IMG/VR virus record: IMGVR_UViG_3300018868_000059
Location: 1-20,125 of that record
Reading direction: 5' to 3' (one strand)
Origin: a virus
Length of the DNA: 20,125 nt
The stretch's first letter is position 1. Every line of letters starts with the position of its first letter. The position numbers were made by a program, and so were the translations under genes. The notes beneath the pieces were generated by a model. It saw only the letters and a list, made by a program, of their open reading frames with translations. It searched no databases and was not told where the DNA came from. Shown here in pieces: positions 4,717 through 18,368 of the stretch.

Positions 4717-4929
4717 GTGTCGGTCTCCCTGTGCGGCTGCCGCACCATCACAGACTGGGCGCAGCTCGGCAACAGCAGATGGCCTCGCCTTTGGGTCCTT
4801 CCCGGCCCCATCTGTATACGGGGGGCAAAGGCGCAAAACAGCGCTAGGCACGAAATCCTCTATGGTGCCGCCGCCTTGACATAGTTTTTGGCAGTTTCCT
4901 GCGGGTTTCGTGATCGTGGAGGCGGCATT
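4717..4929. other. Non-coding region with inverted repeats; candidate cos/promoter region
   Basis: No gene is evident between the minus-strand start and the small terminase start. Inverted repeats are visible: CAGATGG (4776-4782) with CCATCTG (4808-4814), CGCCTTTG (4786-4793) with CAAAGGCG (4826-4833), and GCGC-6-GCGC (4831-4844). The first two pairs interlock, so they cannot both form as hairpins. In lambda-type phages with Nu1/GpA terminases, cos lies just upstream of the small terminase gene. The late promoter should also lie here or further upstream. A TTGACA at 4876-4881 has no matching -10 box. Confidence 0.35.
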
Positions 4930-7635: not shown

Positions 7636-9156
7636 ATGGCCGAACGCTCCATTCTCGACCGGCTGCTCGGACGGCCGGGCGCAGCACCGCGCCAGTCTGT
7701 ACCGGTGCGGCAGCGGATCGCCCGCGGCGGCCCGCGCGCTGAGTATGATGGCGCGACGTTCGGGCGGCGTGCCGCAGGCTGGCGGCGGACACAACGCGAC
7801 GCCAATGCCGAACTGAGTCCGGCCGTCATGGCAGCGCTGCGCGGCATCGCGCGGGACCTGGTGCGCAATAATCCGTTCGCTGCGCGCGGCGTCGCGACGA
7901 TCGCCAATAATATGGTCGGCACCGGCATCACGTTTCAGGTCTACCGCAACGGCAAGATCGACGACGCGCTGAACAAGAAGGCGCGCGCGCACTTCGACAC
8001 CAGCGCGTGCGACAGCGGTGGTCGGCATGATCTATACGGCCTCCAGTTGCAGGCCGCGCGGACCATCGTCGAGAGCGGCGCAGTCGTCATGCGCCGACGC
8101 TGGCGCCGCCTATCGGATCGGCTGCCGCTTCCGGTGCAGCTGCAGGTGCTCGAGCCGGACTATATCGATCCGTCCAAGCATGGCCCGCTTGCCAGCTCGC
8201 CCGGAACCACCGGCGGTTTCATCGTCAACGGGGTTCAGTTCAGCCCGATCGGCGCGCGCGAAGGATACTGGCTCTACAGCGGCCACCCCGGCGCGAACCG
8301 TACCGCTTCGCTCGGCTCCACCCTCATCCCGGCGGCGGATGTCGCACACGTCTTTCGCGCTGATCGCCCGGAAATGGAGCACGGCGCCACCTGGTTGGCA
8401 CCTATCGTCCTACGCATGAAGGACTTTGGCGACTTCGAGGACGCCACGTTGACTAGGCAGAAACTGGCCAATGCCTTCGTCGGCGTAGTCACTGGGGAAG
8501 ACGATGGCGGCATAATCCCCGGGATTCAGACCGAGGACGGCGATGTCGTCGATGGCCGCGAGCCGCTGGACTATATCGAGCCCGGCACGTTCCAATATGC
8601 CCGCCCTGGGGAAGAGGTCACCTTCTCCAACCCGCCCGCCACCGAGGGCTATGCGGACTACACGAAGGTGTCGCTGCGCGCGATCGCTGCGGGGCTCGGC
8701 GTCCCGTATGAGGCGCTGACCGGCGACCTGTCGAGCGTCAACTTTTCGTCCGGGCGCATGGGCTGGCTAGAGTATCAGCGTTCGCTCGCCACTTGGCAGT
8801 GGGCGATGTTCATCCCGCAGTTCTGCGGATCTGTCGGGCAATGGATGATCGATGCCCTCGCGATGACCGGCGAGGACATCACCGGCGTCACGGTGCGGTG
8901 GACGCCACCTGGCCGCGAGATGATCAACCCGTCCGACGAAGTGAAGTCGAGCCGCGATGCTATCCGCGCAGGTGGCAAGACGATCTCCCAGTGGGCGCGC
9001 GAGCGCGGCGAGGATCCCGATACCTTCCTGGCCGAGTTGGCGAGCGATTTTGCCCGCCTCGATGCGCTCGGCCTGATCCTCGACAGCGATCCGCGCCGTG
9101 TCACCGCCGTCGGCAACCCGGCTGAACAGCCCAGCCAGCCACCCAAGGAATCCTGA
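7636..9156 (+). CDS. Phage portal protein, lambda family
   Basis: This 506-residue protein matches the lambda gpB portal family. It has the N-terminal YDGATFGRRAAGWRR motif, DANAE, a RDLVRNNPFAARGV helix followed by NNMVGTGI, then LEPDYIDP and the core with HVFRADRPE, a DATLTRQKLANAF segment and a C-terminal GLGVPYEALTGDLSSVNFSSGR stretch typical of the clip/stem region. Twelve copies form the vertex through which DNA is packaged. ATG 7636 begins 3 nt after the gpW-like stop, with only a weak binding site, so translation is probably coupled. The family is usually near 500-530 residues, so this gene looks complete. Confidence 0.95.
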   Translation: MAERSILDRLLGRPGAAPRQSVPVRQRIARGGPRAEYDGATFGRRAAGWRRTQRDANAELSPAVMAALRGIARDLVRNNPFAARGVATIANNMVGTGITFQVYRNGKIDDALNKKARAHFDTSACDSGGRHDLYGLQLQAARTIVESGAVVMRRRWRRLSDRLPLPVQLQVLEPDYIDPSKHGPLASSPGTTGGFIVNGVQFSPIGAREGYWLYSGHPGANRTASLGSTLIPAADVAHVFRADRPEMEHGATWLAPIVLRMKDFGDFEDATLTRQKLANAFVGVVTGEDDGGIIPGIQTEDGDVVDGREPLDYIEPGTFQYARPGEEVTFSNPPATEGYADYTKVSLRAIAAGLGVPYEALTGDLSSVNFSSGRMGWLEYQRSLATWQWAMFIPQFCGSVGQWMIDALAMTGEDITGVTVRWTPPGREMINPSDEVKSSRDAIRAGGKTISQWARERGEDPDTFLAELASDFARLDALGLILDSDPRRVTAVGNPAEQPSQPPKES

Positions 9157-9157
9157 T

Positions 9158-11317
9158 ATGGACGATATCCTGCTCTACGGGATCGTGGGCGATGAATGGG
9201 ATGGCCTCGATGCCAAGACCATATTCGGCCTGATCAACGGCTCCGACGAAGATATCGTCGTGCGGATCAACTCTCCTGGCGGCTACGTCATGGAAGGCCT
9301 GGCAATCTATAACGCCTTGGCGGGTGCCAAGACGGCCGGTCGCAAGGTGACCATCCATATCGATGGGCTTGCCGCATCCATGGCGTCGGTGATTGCCATG
9401 GTCGGCGACGAGATCATCATGGCGGACAACGCCCTGCTGATGATTCACAATCCCTGGGACGTCGCGGTCGGCGACGCGCGCGAACTGCGCGCCGCTGCCG
9501 ATAAGCTCGACGTCATCCGCGATCAGCTGGTCCGCATCTATTCCGGCAAGACCGGCCTCACCGCCGACGAGCTGATCCCCATGCTCGATGCCGAGACGTG
9601 GCTCACCTCCGAGCAGGCGATCGAGCAGAAATTCGTCACGTCCGTCACCGAGGCGTCAAACGCATCGGCCTGCGACGTCACCGCATTCGGGTTCCGAAAG
9701 GCCCCGGAGACCCCGCGCATCTCCGCCATGGCGATGATCGGCAAACCGAAGGCGCAGCGCGCCGCCCCGCAACGTCCATTGGAGACGAGCATGAACCTCT
9801 ATACGACTCGCGCGGCGCTAGTTGCCGCGATCGCCAAGTTCCAGGCCGAGGGTGGCACCCAGGCCGACATCGATAAGATCGCAGCCTCGGCAATCGCGCT
9901 GGATGCGACCGACGCGCTGCCCAAGACTGGTGCGCTGGCCGCCCCGGCCGAACCGTCGGCGCAGGGTCTCACCTCCGCCGACGTGACGAGCGCCGTCGCT
10001 GCCGAGCGCTCGCGCGTTGGCACGATCCGCGCGCTGGGCACCAAGCATGGCATGGCCGCCGACTTCATCGACGGTCTGGTCGACGCGGGCACGCCGCTCG
10101 CCGAGGCGCGCGAGAAGATCCTCGACAAGCTCGCCGAGCAGGGCGACGCCGCGAATGTCGGCCATAACAGTCCGGCGCGCGTGACGGTCGATCAGCGCGA
10201 CAAGTTTCGCGAGGGCGCGACCAACTGGCTGCTCGTCAAGGCGGGCGTCGCCCACCTCGTCGAAAAGGCGGCGGCGCTGAAGGGCGAGACGGTCAAGATC
10301 GATCCGGGCGAGTTCCGCGGCGTGCGCAACGTCGACCTGGCGCGCGAATCGCTCGCCAATCTCGGCGTGAACGTCACCACCCGCGACCCCGACCTGATCG
10401 TCCGCCAGGCGATGACCTCGCAGGGCGCGGTGATCACCCAGACCACCAGCGATTTCCCGGTGCTGTTCGAGAACGCCATCCACCGGGTGTTGCAGGCGGC
10501 CTATGCCACCACGCCGGACACCTGGACCCGGTTCTGCGGCACCGGCACCGTCGTCGATTTCCGCGATCACAGCCGGTATCTGCGCGGTTCGTTCGGCGCC
10601 CTCGACAATGTGAACGAGGCGGGCGAGTTCAAGAACAAGCCCATCCCCGACCTGGCGAAGGAGAAGATCCGCGCCACGACCAAGGGCAACATCATCAACC
10701 TGTCGCGGCAGGCGATCGTCAACGACGACATGGAGGTCTTCTCCGGCCTCGCCGTCGACCTCGGCCGCGCCGCCAAGCTGACGATCGAGATCGACGTCTA
10801 TGCGCTCCTCAACAGCAACCCGCTGATGAACGACGGCAAGCCGCTTTTCGACGCCGCGCACGGCAACCTGGCCGCGTCCGGAACCCCGCCGACCGTCGTC
10901 GCCTTCGACGCGATCCGCGTCGCCATGGCGTCGCAGAAGGACATCAGCGGCAACGAGTTCCTCGACATCCGCCCGGCGATCGGCCTGTTCCCGATCGGGC
11001 TCGGCGGCTCGGCGCGCATCGTCAACGGCAGCCAATATGACCCGGACTCGGTCAACAAGCTGCAGCGCCCGAACATCGTCAACGGCATGCTCGAGAACAT
11101 CGTTGATACGCCCCGCCTGACCGGCTCGGCCTATTACCTGTTCGCCGACCCCAACATCGCGCCCGCGATCGAGGTGGTGTTCCTCAACGGCGTCACCGAG
11201 CCGTTCACCGACAGCCAGGATGGCTGGCGCGTGGATGGTGTCGAGTGGAAGGTCCGCCACGACTATGGCGTCGGCGCGGTCAACTATCGCTCGGCCTACA
11301 AGCAGCCCGGCGCGTAA
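9158..11317 (+). CDS. Prohead protease / scaffold / major capsid fusion
   Basis: Residues 1-200 are a ClpP-like head maturation protease: INSPGG (37-42), the nucleophile in GLAASMAS (Ser74), and the base in MIHNPW (His97). Residues about 210-340 are Ala/Asp-rich and helical and contain VAAERSRVGTIRALG, which looks like scaffold. Residues 340-719 resemble the Mu gpT-type major head subunit (TTSDFPVLFENAIHRVL, FKNKPIPD, IINLSRQAIVNDDM, GYxxRSxYKQPGA-like end). RefSeq knows such prohead protease/major capsid fusions, so the layout is established though less common. ATG 9158 has AAGGA 8 nt upstream and lies 1 nt after the portal stop. Self-cleavage should free mature capsid protein. Confidence 0.9.
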   Translation: MDDILLYGIVGDEWDGLDAKTIFGLINGSDEDIVVRINSPGGYVMEGLAIYNALAGAKTAGRKVTIHIDGLAASMASVIAMVGDEIIMADNALLMIHNPWDVAVGDARELRAAADKLDVIRDQLVRIYSGKTGLTADELIPMLDAETWLTSEQAIEQKFVTSVTEASNASACDVTAFGFRKAPETPRISAMAMIGKPKAQRAAPQRPLETSMNLYTTRAALVAAIAKFQAEGGTQADIDKIAASAIALDATDALPKTGALAAPAEPSAQGLTSADVTSAVAAERSRVGTIRALGTKHGMAADFIDGLVDAGTPLAEAREKILDKLAEQGDAANVGHNSPARVTVDQRDKFREGATNWLLVKAGVAHLVEKAAALKGETVKIDPGEFRGVRNVDLARESLANLGVNVTTRDPDLIVRQAMTSQGAVITQTTSDFPVLFENAIHRVLQAAYATTPDTWTRFCGTGTVVDFRDHSRYLRGSFGALDNVNEAGEFKNKPIPDLAKEKIRATTKGNIINLSRQAIVNDDMEVFSGLAVDLGRAAKLTIEIDVYALLNSNPLMNDGKPLFDAAHGNLAASGTPPTVVAFDAIRVAMASQKDISGNEFLDIRPAIGLFPIGLGGSARIVNGSQYDPDSVNKLQRPNIVNGMLENIVDTPRLTGSAYYLFADPNIAPAIEVVFLNGVTEPFTDSQDGWRVDGVEWKVRHDYGVGAVNYRSAYKQPGA
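9791..11317 (+). CDS. Possible internal translation product: scaffold plus capsid without protease
   Basis: An in-frame ATG at 9791 (codon 212 of the fusion) begins MNLYTTRAALVAAIAKF, precisely at the end of the protease domain. GGAG at 9781-9784 sits 6 nt upstream. A start here would make a 508-residue scaffold-capsid protein in excess over the protease form, as lambda does with the nested gene Nu3 in C. The start and binding site are visible; use of the start is inference. It would solve the problem of having one protease per capsid subunit. Confidence 0.4.
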   Translation: MNLYTTRAALVAAIAKFQAEGGTQADIDKIAASAIALDATDALPKTGALAAPAEPSAQGLTSADVTSAVAAERSRVGTIRALGTKHGMAADFIDGLVDAGTPLAEAREKILDKLAEQGDAANVGHNSPARVTVDQRDKFREGATNWLLVKAGVAHLVEKAAALKGETVKIDPGEFRGVRNVDLARESLANLGVNVTTRDPDLIVRQAMTSQGAVITQTTSDFPVLFENAIHRVLQAAYATTPDTWTRFCGTGTVVDFRDHSRYLRGSFGALDNVNEAGEFKNKPIPDLAKEKIRATTKGNIINLSRQAIVNDDMEVFSGLAVDLGRAAKLTIEIDVYALLNSNPLMNDGKPLFDAAHGNLAASGTPPTVVAFDAIRVAMASQKDISGNEFLDIRPAIGLFPIGLGGSARIVNGSQYDPDSVNKLQRPNIVNGMLENIVDTPRLTGSAYYLFADPNIAPAIEVVFLNGVTEPFTDSQDGWRVDGVEWKVRHDYGVGAVNYRSAYKQPGA

Positions 11318-13263: not shown

Positions 13264-13743
13264 ATGGACGCCAACGGCAATAGCGAGGCCCAGTCCGGCT
13301 GGGGCTCGGGCTTTTTCATGGGGCTGACCGCCTCGACGATGATCGAGATCTCCGAAGTCACCAAGATCCCGTTCGCCGAGGAGAAGGCTGGCACCTTCGA
13401 AAAGACGCATTTTAAGTCGCCCAATCGCCGCAAGGAATATGGTGCCGCGCTGATCGAGCCGGGCGAGGACACGCTGGAGATCAATTACATCCCCGGCTCG
13501 CCGACCGACCTGCTGCTGACGGCGGCTCATAACAGCGGTGCACCATATATCTATGAGACGTACCTGCCCGCGCCTGGCAACAAGTGGTGGAAGGTCAGCG
13601 GCTATCTGATCGTCCAGTCGCGTGGCCGCTCGGTGCCGATCGACAACGGCATGAAGCAGATGGTCAGCGTGCGGTTCACCGGGGCCTCGTCTGAAGCGGG
13701 CGCGACCGCACAGCGGACCGTCTCGGCCGGGTCGGGCTCGTAA
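13264..13743 (+). CDS. Phage tail tube protein
   Basis: This 159-residue protein has the features of a major tail tube subunit: an acidic/polar N-terminus, a strand-rich core (MIEISEVTKIPFAEEKAGTF, RKEYGAALIEPGEDTLEI, NYIPGSPTD) and W/Y-containing strands (NKWWKVSGYLIVQ), ending in a Ser/Gly-rich tail. It stacks to form the tail shaft around the tape measure. AGGGA (13254-13258) is 5 nt from ATG 13264. Its position right before the tail assembly chaperone gene is the same as lambda V to G. Confidence 0.9.
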   Translation: MDANGNSEAQSGWGSGFFMGLTASTMIEISEVTKIPFAEEKAGTFEKTHFKSPNRRKEYGAALIEPGEDTLEINYIPGSPTDLLLTAAHNSGAPYIYETYLPAPGNKWWKVSGYLIVQSRGRSVPIDNGMKQMVSVRFTGASSEAGATAQRTVSAGSGS

Positions 13744-14201
13744 TGCGCGGCGGGATCGTCTTCGACGCCGGGGGGCAGCGCTATACGCTGTTCCTCGGCA
13801 ACGCCGCGCAGTGCGCCGTCGAGGAGCAGTATGATCGGGGCTTTTTCGCCGTCGTCGCTGATGCGATGCCCGGTATCGATCCGCAGGTCGCGATGGCGGT
13901 CGCGCGGGCGATGCAGACGGGCGCCGAACTGTCTCCGGCTTTGGCTGCCAAAGCCCAGGAAGGTCTGCGCAGCATCCGCCTGAGCGTGCTGCGCGATCTC
14001 GCATGGCATGGCCTGCGCGAGCATCATCCCGGCATCACGCTGCCTCAGGTCAGCACGATCGCCGATGAACTGGGCCGTGACGCGTTCAGCGAGATCATCG
14101 GCCGGGCGCTGCGCGCGGCGCAGGGTGAAGCCGAGGAGGCGGGGCCCGCTCCCAGCCCGGGAAAGCCCAAGCCGCCGAGGTCCCGCAAGACCCGCGGCTG
14201 A
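13743..14201 (+). CDS. Tail assembly chaperone, GTA_gp10-like (G-type product)
   Basis: The 152-residue protein resembles the GTA_gp10 tail assembly chaperone family: a strand (GQRYTLFLGNAAQCAVEEQ), and helices with VAMAVARAMQTGAELSPALA and GLRSIRLSVLRDLAWHGL. The C-terminal end is a disordered Pro/Lys/Arg tail (KPKPPRSRKTRG). The chaperone holds the tape measure protein while tail tube subunits assemble. Translation starts at ATG 13743 in a TAATG overlap with the tail tube gene. It is the more abundant of two products, since a -1 frameshift near codon 141 makes a longer form. Confidence 0.85.
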   Translation: MRGGIVFDAGGQRYTLFLGNAAQCAVEEQYDRGFFAVVADAMPGIDPQVAMAVARAMQTGAELSPALAAKAQEGLRSIRLSVLRDLAWHGLREHHPGITLPQVSTIADELGRDAFSEIIGRALRAAQGEAEEAGPAPSPGKPKPPRSRKTRG

Positions 14202-14542
14202 GGACTGAATGGGGAAAGCTGGAGCGCCAATGGGCGCGCTTCGGCCTACCTCCTGAAATTTTCTGGAAAATTACGCCCGCTATCATGCGGTCGACGATCC
14301 TGGGTCGCATCGATGCCCGACGGGACGATTACGAACTGGCCAAATATGCGGGTTGGAAGGCTATCTGGTTCCATCGTCAGGAGCGGCTCGAGCCCTTCGG
14401 CAACTATGCCGCGAAAGAGCAGCCAGAGGCCGATGGCGAGCGCCAACGCCCGGAAGAGATGCTGGCATCGCTCGTCGGCCGGGCAGGCAGTGGAGCGCCC
14501 ATCCATGTCGAGCTGGTGGACAGTCCCCGCCCGCGGGGCTGA
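13743..14542 (+). CDS. Tail assembly chaperone GT-type fusion made by -1 frameshift
   Basis: Ribosomes slipping back one base at 14159-14165 leave the G-type frame after Lys141 (AAG 14163-14165) and go on from GCC 14165 to TGA 14540-14542. This adds 125 residues, for a total of 266. The added domain begins AQAAEVPQDPRL and contains EWGKLERQWARFGLPPEIFW, then RSTILGRIDARRDD, YAGWKAIWFHRQE and an acidic tail. This second frame has no good start of its own before ATG 14285, which is mid-domain, and it has no separate binding site. The lambda T domain of gpGT binds tail tube subunits, and the same job is inferred here. Confidence 0.8.
14159..14165 (+). promoter_or_regulatory. Programmed -1 frameshift slippery heptamer
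   Basis: The heptamer GGGAAAG lies with GGA (14160-14162) and AAG (14163-14165) as zero-frame codons of the chaperone gene. It is therefore a G_GGA_AAG site in the right register, the same as in lambda G/GT. The new frame is open back to 14129 and forward to 14542. Confidence 0.85.
14171..14198 (+). promoter_or_regulatory. Hairpin downstream of the slippery site
   Basis: GCCGC (14171-14175) pairs with GCGGC (14194-14198) and GGTC (14179-14182) pairs with GACC (14189-14192) around a 6-nt loop. The stem begins 5 nt after the heptamer, the spacing usual for a frameshift-stimulating structure. It also covers most of the zero-frame codons before the stop. Confidence 0.6.
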
Positions 14543-14604
14543 CCGATCGCGAGACTCATCACGATCTCTTGGATATGCTCAGGCAGCATAACGGGAGGTT
14601 CGGG

Positions 14605-14910
14605 ATGAGGTTGTTTTTAGGCTTAATAGCTTTGGCGTTATCCTGCGGCGGATGCTCGCCAACGTCCAGCGGGGTGGACATCGACTTCAACAATACAACG
14701 CCTATGACCGCAGAAGCAGAAAATAAGTTCAATGCCGATAGGCTGGCATTTGTTAAGCGTTTCAATGAAAACGCTCGTATTACTAATGCAAGAATTTCGG
14801 AGTATTATAAGCGAGGTGTTAAAGTTTGCGCCAATTTAAAGCGCGCTGGATATCCGGACGGGAACGGATGCCCCCGGCCGAAGCCGAAGTATGTCGAATA
14901 TCTCAAGTGA
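14605..14910 (+). CDS. Small lipoprotein, moron candidate, 101 aa
   Basis: ATG 14605 has GGGAGG (14593-14598) 6 nt upstream. The N-terminus is a signal peptide, MRLFLGLIALALSCGGC, with Cys14 (A-L-S-C) or Cys17 (C-G-G-C) as the lipid-modified residue. The mature part is short, mostly helical and basic (AENKFNADRLAFVKRFNEN, ISEYYKRGVKV), with Cys75 and Cys89 that may pair. The gene is visibly AT-richer than its neighbours and uses codons such as TTA, AAT and ATT that they rarely use. That suggests separate origin. It interrupts the usual run from chaperone to tape measure. A superinfection-exclusion or cell-surface role, as for other phage lipoproteins (Cor, Llp), is inference. The function is not known. 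Confidence 0.75.
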   Translation: MRLFLGLIALALSCGGCSPTSSGVDIDFNNTTPMTAEAENKFNADRLAFVKRFNENARITNARISEYYKRGVKVCANLKRAGYPDGNGCPRPKPKYVEYLK

Positions 14911-15050
14911 AGCAATCAGAAGTCATTTAAGACGCTGGATATCAGCCGCCGTATGGCCTTAGGGCGCGTTATGAATGGGGGGGCATTGTCTCGCAATCCA
15001 CCTATCCACAGCTCCGCCTCTGATGTTGTCGCTGGACCGCGATCTCTGAT

Positions 15051-15115
15051 GCTCTACAACCTGAGGTAGAGCCAAGTGCCGGGGTTGCCGATGTAATTCA
15101 GTAGCCCCGGCACTT
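15051..15115 (+). repeat. Two adjacent perfect hairpins
   Basis: The first has a 7-bp stem, GCTCTAC (15051-15057) and GTAGAGC (15066-15072), with an 8-nt loop. The second has an 11-bp stem, AAGTGCCGGGG (15074-15084) and CCCCGGCACTT (15105-15115), with a 20-nt loop. Only 1 nt separates them. They may be part of a terminator, an RNA-processing signal or a small structured RNA. Confidence 0.6.
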
Positions 15116-15122
15116 CCATATC

Positions 15123-15152
15123 GGCAGGTCTGGCCGCGCCCCCTGCCCTTTT
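15123..15152 (+). terminator. Terminator-like hairpin before the tape measure gene
   Basis: GGCAGG (15123-15128) pairs with CCTGCC (15142-15147) around a 13-nt loop and is followed by CTTTT (15148-15152). It could end a lipoprotein transcript made from its own promoter. Late transcripts would have to read through, for example by antitermination. Confidence 0.45.
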
Positions 15153-15218
15153 GATCGAAAACCCATCCCATCTCCGCCGCAGGCTCCGCCCCGCGGCCTA
15201 TTTGCATGAGGTTCGTCC

Positions 15219-18200
15219 ATGGAAGCGATGCTCGCCAATCTGACCTTTGGGATGAACGTGCGCGACGCCGCCTTCCGGTCTGCCCTCGCGACCGACCGTG
15301 CCGAGCTCCAGCGTACGGAGCGCCAGTTCCGCCAGTCTGGTGATGGCATGTCGGCGGCGATGCAGGACGCCGCGCGCGAGATCAATCGCGCTGCGCTGGC
15401 GATGATCGACAGCCTGTCACGGGCAGCCGACAAGGTGCGCAATGCCGGGCTGATCATGACGGCGGCGCTGACCGTGCCGCTCGCTGCAGCGGGCAAGGGT
15501 GCCAAGGACACCGCGTCTGATTTTCAGGTCGCGATGAATAAGGTGCAGGCAGCGATGCTCGACGCCTCGCCCGAGCAGTTGAACAAGCTGCGCGATGCGG
15601 CGCTCGCGCTGGGCCCAGCATATGGGAAGAGCGCAATTGAGGCGGCGGGCGCGATCGAGAACCTGGCGAAGAACGGCATGGACGCGGCTTCGATTCTGGG
15701 CGGCGGCCTGGCGGGCGCGCTGGCGCTTGGCGTTGTAGGGCAGACCAACCTTGGTGACGCGGCCGACGCGACGACCGACATTCTTCAGCAGTTCCATATC
15801 TCAGCCGGGCAGCTGCCGACAATCGTCGACAAGGTCAGCGGGGCGCTCGACGCATCGAAGCTGTCGTTCGACGGCTACAAGGACGCCATCGGCCAGGTCG
15901 GCGGCATCGCCGGGGGCCTCGGCTATCAGTTCGAGGACATGAATACAGCACTGGCGGCCGTTGTCCCGCTGATGACGGGCGGAGCCGATGCAGGCACCTC
16001 GTTCAAGACCTTCCTTCTCGCGCTGGTGCCGCAGTCAAAGGACGCGGCCGACGTGATGGACAAGCTGGGCCTGTCGTTCTTCAATGCGAACGGCAGTGCG
16101 AAGTCGCTCAGCGAGGTCGCGACGCAGCTGAATGAGAAGCTGACCCCGCTGACGGATAAGTCGCGCCAAACCGCGCTGACCAAGATGTTTGGTACCGACG
16201 GTATGCGGGTGGCTATCGCGCTGATGCAGGCTGGTGCCAAGGGTATCGCCGACGTTCAGGCGCAGATCGACAAGGCGTCGGCCAACCAGAAGATGGCGGT
16301 TCTGCTCGACGGCGAAGCGGCAGCGACCCAGCGCGTTGCCAGTGCCTGGGAGAAGCTGAAGATCGTCGTCGGCGAGGCCGGGATCATCCAGGCATTCACG
16401 ATGGTCAAGGAGGCGACCGCCTCTGTCCTGTCGGTGCTCGCCGGTGGGCCGCCCTGGTTCTACAAGATCATGGTCGCGGTCGGGCTGTTCGCGGCCTCGC
16501 TAGGTCCGCTCACGCTGGCTTTGCTGCAGGTCGCCAAGATCGGCCTGCCGCTGCTGTTGCTCCGGCTGGGCCCGGTCGCACTCGGCATTGCTGCGATCAT
16601 CAACCCCATGGGCGTGCTGATCCGGCTGCTCGGCCAGTTGGCGCTTCAGGCCGGTGCATCGGCGATCCTTGCGCGGTTGGGCACGGCGATGATCGGCTTT
16701 GCTGGGCCGATTGGCTTGGTCGTCACCGCACTGACCGTGCTGGTCCCGCTGCTATTCCGCAAGCGCGAGGCGTCATTGGCCGCACAGGCGGCGGTGGACG
16801 CAGCCCGCGAGGCGGATCGTCGCTCGACCCAGACCGCGCTTGAACTGGCGAGCGCGACGGACAAGGCCCGCGCCGCCATTCTCGAAAAGGCTAAGGCTGA
16901 CCGGGTTGCGGCATTGGATGCCGTAGCAAAGGCCAAGGCGGACATGGCGGCTGCCCGCGCCGCCTACACCCGAGCCAAGGCGGACGCGGATCGCGCGGCG
17001 CAGTTGGGCCCGACCGATAGCGAGGGCGGTATAGGCGTTGCTCAGACCGCCGCGACCACGCGCTTCATGCAGGCGTCCGCCAATTTCCAGGCGAGCATGG
17101 ATGCACTTAGCGGGCAGTTTCGCGCGCTGGACACGCTCAACAAGGCGATCGGCTCCGCCAGTGCCGGCTCGACCGGCCGAGTCGACATGTCGTTCGACGA
17201 CGAGAAGAAAAAAAAGGCCAAGAAGGGCCGCGACGCCGCTCAGGACGAATCGAACTATCTCGACGAGCTCGGCCGCGCGCGCGTCGCGCTGCTGCGCGCC
17301 CAGGCCGACATGACCGAGGACGCACGTGCCCGGCACCGGGCCGATGTCGCGGCGCTGGAGGAGGACCGCGCCGCCTATGGCCGCCAGGTTGAACTCGACA
17401 AGGGTCTGACCGACGCCAAGCGGCAGACGCTACTCGCCAAGCGTGACGAGGCGATGGAGATCGAGCGCGCCGTCATCGACCAGACGCTGTTCCGTGCCGA
17501 AACGCAGGAAGCCTATGATTTGGCCAAGGCTGGCAACGATGCGCAGCAGGAACATCTGCGCGCCCAGCTCGACCTAGTCGACAGCATAGAGGCGCGCCGC
17601 GGCATCGAGTTGAAGTTGCTCGACCTCCAGCGTCAGCAGGAGGAAGCCGACCTCGAACTGATCCTTGCGACCAAGTCGACCGCGTCCGCGGAGTGGGCCA
17701 ACGCGCAGAAGCGGAAAGGTGAACTCGACGCGGTCTATGCCGATCGGCGCGGCTCGATCATGCGGCAGAACGAAAGTCCGGCGGAAGCCTATGGCCGGAC
17801 GGTGAACGCCTCCGCTGCGGCGATTAACGAGCGTGTGCAGGAAGGCGCGATCAACGGCCTGCGCGACCTGAATGCCGGCCTGACCGACGCGATCATGGGC
17901 ACTGCGAAGCTTGGCGACGCCTTCGAGAATATGGGGAAGCGCATCATCGCATCTCTGCTCGATATCGCGATTCAGCAGGCGGTGATCCGGCCGCTGGCCA
18001 ACAGCCTGTTCGGGGCGGCGGATGCGGCGGGCAATCGTTCGGGCGGTTCGCTGGCAAGCGTCGGCAGCTTTTTTGCCCGCACTTTCGGCGGTGGCCGCGC
18101 GACGGGCGGGCCGGTGAGTTCGTCCGGCTGGTATGTCGTTGGCGAGCAAGGCCCCGAACTGTTCGCACCCGGCGTCAACGGCGCAATCGTGCCGAACGGC

Positions 18201-18368
18201 GGCTTGGCAGCGGGTAGCGGTCGGTCCCCATCCGTGGTGCAGCTGGTGGTCGGGGAGGGACAGATGTTCGAGCCTCGCGTCCAGTCGATCTCGGGTGGCG
18301 TGTCGGTACAGACCGTCCGCTCGGCCGGGCGGTCGAATGCGATCCGCGCGCGACAGAGCCTCGACTGA
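15219..18368 (+). CDS. Phage tail tape measure protein, TP901-like core
   Basis: The 1049-residue protein sets tail length. Residues 1-80 form a helical start (MNVRDAAFRSALATDRAEL). About 90-400 is the TP901-type core (DFQVAMNKVQAAML, IENLAKNGMDAASILGG, GQTNLGDAADATTDILQQF, ALTKMFGTDGMRVAIALM). About 412-515 is strongly hydrophobic (VGLFAASLGPLTLALL, PIGLVVTALTVLVPLL), as in tape measures that insert in the host membrane. About 520-830 is Ala/Lys/Glu-rich and likely coiled coil. The C-terminus has the conserved GEQGPELFAPGVNGAIVPN motif. ATG 15219 has GAGG 7 nt upstream. An eight-A run (17208-17215) codes for Lys residues and is described under findings. Confidence 0.95.
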   Translation: MEAMLANLTFGMNVRDAAFRSALATDRAELQRTERQFRQSGDGMSAAMQDAAREINRAALAMIDSLSRAADKVRNAGLIMTAALTVPLAAAGKGAKDTASDFQVAMNKVQAAMLDASPEQLNKLRDAALALGPAYGKSAIEAAGAIENLAKNGMDAASILGGGLAGALALGVVGQTNLGDAADATTDILQQFHISAGQLPTIVDKVSGALDASKLSFDGYKDAIGQVGGIAGGLGYQFEDMNTALAAVVPLMTGGADAGTSFKTFLLALVPQSKDAADVMDKLGLSFFNANGSAKSLSEVATQLNEKLTPLTDKSRQTALTKMFGTDGMRVAIALMQAGAKGIADVQAQIDKASANQKMAVLLDGEAAATQRVASAWEKLKIVVGEAGIIQAFTMVKEATASVLSVLAGGPPWFYKIMVAVGLFAASLGPLTLALLQVAKIGLPLLLLRLGPVALGIAAIINPMGVLIRLLGQLALQAGASAILARLGTAMIGFAGPIGLVVTALTVLVPLLFRKREASLAAQAAVDAAREADRRSTQTALELASATDKARAAILEKAKADRVAALDAVAKAKADMAAARAAYTRAKADADRAAQLGPTDSEGGIGVAQTAATTRFMQASANFQASMDALSGQFRALDTLNKAIGSASAGSTGRVDMSFDDEKKKKAKKGRDAAQDESNYLDELGRARVALLRAQADMTEDARARHRADVAALEEDRAAYGRQVELDKGLTDAKRQTLLAKRDEAMEIERAVIDQTLFRAETQEAYDLAKAGNDAQQEHLRAQLDLVDSIEARRGIELKLLDLQRQQEEADLELILATKSTASAEWANAQKRKGELDAVYADRRGSIMRQNESPAEAYGRTVNASAAAINERVQEGAINGLRDLNAGLTDAIMGTAKLGDAFENMGKRIIASLLDIAIQQAVIRPLANSLFGAADAAGNRSGGSLASVGSFFARTFGGGRATGGPVSSSGWYVVGEQGPELFAPGVNGAIVPNGGLAAGSGRSPSVVQLVVGEGQMFEPRVQSISGGVSVQTVRSAGRSNAIRARQSLD

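Follow-up and report, generated by a model that had tools for sequence, protein, structure and literature searches.

A predicted lambda G/GT-type tail assembly chaperone in a virus of sphingomonad-type bacteria, and likely -1 frameshifting at the gp10/g10.1 joint of gene transfer agents

The window analyzed here is the whole of a 20,125-base stretch from IMG/VR virus record IMGVR_UViG_3300018868_000059, and a pair of overlapping frames sits in it between the genes for the tail tube and the tape measure (gene order tail tube - G - T - tape measure; Table 1). This is the standard place of the G and T tail assembly chaperones. On the strength of comparison with related loci, we predict with a probability of about 94% that the two frames, ORF1 and ORF2, specify a tail assembly chaperone of the lambda G/GT type that is produced by programmed -1 frameshifting. 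Judged in the same manner, the feature is almost certainly functional and of a well-known kind, with sphingomonad-type bacteria as the host group. Most ribosomes would read ORF1 to its stop at 14199-14201, producing the G-like protein of 152 aa, while a presumably small fraction would slip by -1 on the G_GGA_AAG heptamer and enter ORF2, thereby producing a GT-like fusion. By analogy with lambda, G may form a coat on the tape measure protein, and the T portion of the fusion may bring in the tail tube subunits.

Table 1. Features of the tail chaperone region, in positions of the window
Feature	Position	Strand	Remarks
Major tail tube protein	13264..13743	+	directly 5' of ORF1; PF16461 lambda-type TTP, E 8.6e-10; phrog_158 major tail protein
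ORF1, G-like tail assembly chaperone, 152 aa	13743..14201	+	ATG 13743 to TGA 14199-14201
ORF2, T-like domain, -1 frame	14129..14542	+	without own start codon; coding part used 14165-14539
Slippery heptamer GGGAAAG, -1 shift	14159..14165	+	register G_GGA_AAG; CCG GGA AAG in ORF1 frame
Hairpin	14170..14199	+	stem 14170-14175/14194-14199; inner stem 14179-14182/14189-14192
Tape measure protein	15219..18368	+	downstream; PF10145, E 4.8e-38; many PHROG tape-measure families

An earlier note, made from the letters of the window, had proposed that GGGAAAG at 14159-14165 lies in the register G_GGA_AAG, that an open -1 frame extends over 14129-14542 and that the product of the shift has 266 residues. 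All three points hold: the register is that of ORF1 counted from the ATG at 13743, the -1 frame is delimited by a TGA at 14126-14128 upstream and a stop at 14540-14542 at its end, and translation across a -1 shift at the heptamer, which falls inside the overlap of the two frames, gives an ORF1-ORF2 fusion of 266 aa whose junction peptide spans ...SPGKAQAAEVPQDPR. A second GGGAAAG is found 53 nt past the first (14212-14218) in the register of the -1 frame. We take it to be a chance occurrence because it is not conserved in relatives, the closely related locus L003 having GGGCAAG in its place.

Scans of the viral contigs in IMG/VR recovered 23 loci whose ORF1 relatives share 51-100% identity; 14 of these loci were absent from the model used. 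In all 23 an in-register GGGAAA[N] lies near the end of ORF1 (GGGAAAG in 20, GGGAAAC in two and GGGAAAA in one) and the ORF2 domain is in the -1 frame (E <= 4.2e-33). A locus in a Sphingomonas MAG, with GGGAAA in register and ORF2 in the -1 frame just as in the viral loci, brings the total to 24. The frame layout of the viral relatives is also seen in Sphingomonas endophytica DSM 101535 (locus L031), which apparently harbors the same prophage as L019. When 19 divergent members are compared, GGGAAA is 100% invariant and the seventh base is G in 84%, with most flanking positions showing identities of 0.3-0.9; in diverse sphingomonad-type phages no DNA near the joint is better conserved than the shift site. 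The distance from the site to the stop in the 0 frame varies from 21 to 129 nt among relatives, which indicates that the 0-frame peptide past the site is free to change and the heptamer is fixed. GGA is used for about 9% of the remaining Gly codons of ORF1. Codon usage predicts about 0.02 in-register GGGAAA[ACG] per ORF1, yet the heptamer is present at the same joint in 24/24 loci, which excludes a chance origin. Homologs that had lost the heptamer while retaining both frames were sought among these relatives as evidence against frameshifting, and 0/24 loci were of this kind; the conservation of heptamer and register that the earlier note had proposed to examine was observed throughout. In two relatives (L007 and L028) the site reads G_GGA_AAC (Gly-Asn) instead of G_GGA_AAG, resembling that of the Caulobacter phage Colossus.

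These data bear on several other ways in which the two frames might have come about. ORF2 could be an independent or translationally coupled gene with a start of its own, as in sphingomonad gene transfer agents (GTAs), the heptamer being incidental; indeed, certain PF11836 loci have a start that overlaps the gp10 stop (e.g. L033, L034, L116 and L129). However, the -1 frame of the window has no ATG, GTG or TTG before 14285, and this first candidate lies 120 nt downstream of the site, inside the domain and past its W..FW core, with no visible Shine-Dalgarno sequence. An early start is likewise missing in most relatives, where the first start codon occurs 90-240 nt into ORF2, and in L021 the whole of ORF2 past the site is devoid of ATG, GTG and TTG. 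The claim that the ORF2 domain lacks a start signal of its own is borne out in the window, and a search across the relatives for a conserved independent start found none; a separate start is a very unlikely explanation. RNA polymerase slippage, in place of ribosomal slippage, would likewise change the frame at a fixed site, but the site has runs of just three G and three A, and its register is fixed as X_XXY_YYZ, a feature relevant only to tRNAs, leaving transcriptional slippage extremely improbable. Finally, when one metagenomic virus record shows two frames that overlap, an artefact is a common cause, and one might suspect that an indel from sequencing or assembly, or decay into a pseudogene, had split a single chaperone gene. 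Against this, 24 loci share the frame relation, with ORF1 identities that go down to about 50%, and they come from separate assemblies including the Sphingomonas MAG; the probability of such an origin is negligible.

The two-part hairpin that had been described downstream of the heptamer is present in the window, beginning 4-5 nt past the heptamer with a predicted energy of -16.8 kcal/mol for 14166-14200, but it is only mildly more stable than shuffled sequences (z about -1.65). The view that it is a conserved driver of the shift draws on its occurrence in the window and in the two nearest relatives, L003 and L004, where the 50 nt past the heptamer fold at -20.3 kcal/mol (z -1.4 to -2.1). In L006, however, whose ORF1 is 91% identical, the corresponding 50 nt reach only -9.3 kcal/mol and the hairpin is lost, and most members lack the stem altogether. 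Across 22 members no conserved stimulatory RNA structure was found after the site: the mean z is -0.09, values below -1 are seen in 6/22, and other stretches of these genes are at least as stable as the region (mean rank 0.60). A conserved driving role is accordingly unlikely, and the part of the earlier claim that made the hairpin a component of the signal finds no support beyond the closest relatives. Since it is not conserved, the hairpin, though real in the window, is probably not essential to the predicted shift signal. A stimulatory structure does not define the G/GT type, as some tailed phages are known to frameshift without stimulators (PMC5009743).

Profile searches place both domains in the vicinity of the chaperones of GTAs. 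ORF1 matches the tail protein family phrog_2115 (E 5e-10) and, below the curated cut-off of 27.8, PF11836 (Phage_TAC_11, GTA gp10; 16.6 bits, E 0.0086), which also weakly matches 4/9 members of the ORF1 family (best E 1.6e-4). ORF2 matches PF09550 (Phage_TAC_6, GTA g10.1) with 15.3 bits, below the curated cut-off of 23.4, and TIGR02216 (rcc01693), again weakly and below cut-off; PF09550 gives weak matches to 7/9 members of the ORF2 family (best E 4.5e-5). In profile-profile comparisons, for which the alignments of GTA gp10 and g10.1 were drawn from genomes, the ORF1 profile tentatively aligns with that of gp10, along almost its entire length but interrupted by a gap of some 30 residues (E 6.7e-5, Prob 64%), and the ORF2 profile matches that of g10.1 in the W...P..FW..T core only, over 34 columns (E 5e-7, Prob 92%). 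The AlphaFold model of ORF1 (pLDDT 73.7) has a disordered tail at residues 130-152, which holds the shift site. This model recovered weak viral fold matches from BFVD, several carrying a tail assembly chaperone annotation, and no meaningful match in a fold search of the PDB; comparison of ORF2 with viral structure models gave nothing usable. ORF1, ORF2 and the relative L022 had no match among 50,697 annotated phage genomes, and none was confirmed in a first scan of genome contigs. We conclude from these sequence comparisons that ORF2 is best regarded as remote kin of GTA g10.1 (PF09550) and ORF1 as probable remote kin of gp10 (PF11836), and neither as a formal member of these families.

G_GGA_AAG is among the best bacterial -1 sites. 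It is the heptamer of lambda G/GT (PMC7618472), one of the closest known systems (Levin 1993; Xu 2004, 2013, 2014, reviewed in PMC5009743), with which the locus shares the gene order, the predicted -1 shift, the identical heptamer and a T domain without its own start. In sequence, however, the window ORFs show no detectable similarity to lambda G or T in family scans, and are nearest to GTA gp10 and g10.1 instead. The lactococcal phage TP901-1 uses GGGAAAG for gpG/gpT, and its slippery site has been mutated to block gpT (PMC4493119); it resembles the window in having GGGAAAG near the end of gpG, but no sequence relation between the two was seen. The same heptamer is used by the haloarchaeal virus HCTV-5 (PMC5009743) and by a capsid gene (PMC9965538). 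Conversely, the chaperones of the Caulobacter phages Colossus and phiCbK, which like the window have a -1 site ahead of the tape measure gene and are phages of alphaproteobacteria, employ different heptamers, GGGAAAC and AAAAAAC (PMC3556154). Because it occurs in lambda, TP901-1 and a haloarchaeal virus alike, the shared heptamer is no proof of descent. The suggestion in the earlier note that the lambda site would link lambda-type and GTA_gp10-type chaperones is hence invalid as stated, G_GGA_AAG recurring in unrelated phages, although slippery sites, with this heptamer or a different one, do exist in the GTA_gp10 type. The RcGTA-type pair of g10 (PF11836) and g10.1 (PF09550, TIGR02216) is remotely homologous to ORF2 and probably to ORF1 and has the same order, g10.1 lying mostly in the -1 frame, but the two are described as separate genes; GTAs further differ from the window in that many from sphingomonads have overlapping starts and others have C_CCU_UUN at the joint.

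An examination of PF11836 loci from alphaproteobacterial genomes, 76 of which have a clear gp10 with an adjoining PF09550-like domain, showed this domain to be in the -1 frame in 61. An in-register heptamer is present at the gp10/g10.1 joint in 33 of those 61, with GGGAAA in six and CCCTTT in 27. Over 77 loci, 0.2-0.4 GGGAAA[ACG] and 0.2-0.3 CCCTTT[CT] were expected, and six and 24, respectively, were observed. In twelve of the CCCTTT loci the stretch from the site to the FW motif is free of start codons. Where the g10.1 motif PF.W overlaps gp10, it is written CCC TTT in 27/27 loci. As these loci do not represent independent lineages, such counts exaggerate how many separate events took place, but the synonymous choice is uniform and unlike the usage of the genes themselves, gp10 having TTT for 11/48 Phe codons and CCC for 22/56 Pro codons. 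One of these loci, L145, belongs to a genuine RcGTA-type cluster with the megatron, baseplate hub, distal tail protein, NlpC peptidase and an RcGTA-like tape measure; its joint (position 4796, reverse strand) has C_CCU_UUC, and its g10.1 is without a start codon. An ISAs1-family transposase gene lies nearby. L143 (region L146), which has GGGAAAG, lies in a region that resembles a prophage and has a portal and capsid of the HK97 type. Many sphingomonad GTAs, on the other hand, lack the heptamer and overlap the gp10 stop with a start codon (ATGA/GTGA). In L048, the one locus in which the motif falls past the gp10 stop, the PFPW of g10.1 is encoded before the first ATG, GTG or TTG, with CCC TTC and no slippery site.

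These observations make it likely that many alphaproteobacterial GTAs and GTA-like prophages make a gp10-g10.1 fusion by -1 frameshifting at C_CCU_UUN (mostly C_CCU_UUY) or G_GGA_AAN, and that sphingomonad GTAs swapped this for an overlapping-start cistron. In RcGTA, g10 and g10.5 have been named 'tail chaperone 1' and 'tail chaperone 2' and are treated as separate genes (PMC11409702), the RcGTA structure paper makes no mention of these chaperones (PMC7296036), and we found no report of frameshifting at the gp10/g10.1 joint of GTAs in the open-access literature. The lambda-type frameshift is well known; what would be new is the prediction for GTAs which, if true, would make their tail chaperones 1 and 2 the G and T of lambda. 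GTAs are domesticated phages, and in one group of them the second chaperone is apparently reached only by frameshifting. Comparison of GTAs that keep the slippery site with those that have an overlapping start would reveal the ways in which domestication removes a recoding signal or puts another in its place. In the window itself the predicted 266-aa protein can now be rightly annotated, gene callers having cut it into a short protein and an orphan frame.

Two further features of the window were noted. Between ORF2 and the tape measure gene there is an insertion of about 0.65 kb (14543-15218) with a low G+C content (about 46% around 14600-14900 versus 60-70% elsewhere), which contains a lipoprotein-like ORF (14605-14910) with a GGGAGG site; at most a few tens of bases separate ORF2 from the start of the tape measure in L003, L004 and L006, which are close relatives. 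This insertion looks like a phage moron. Upstream, at 9098-11317, a single ORF of 739 aa has a ClpP-like protease region followed by a major capsid-like region, judging from its translation a putative protease-capsid fusion.
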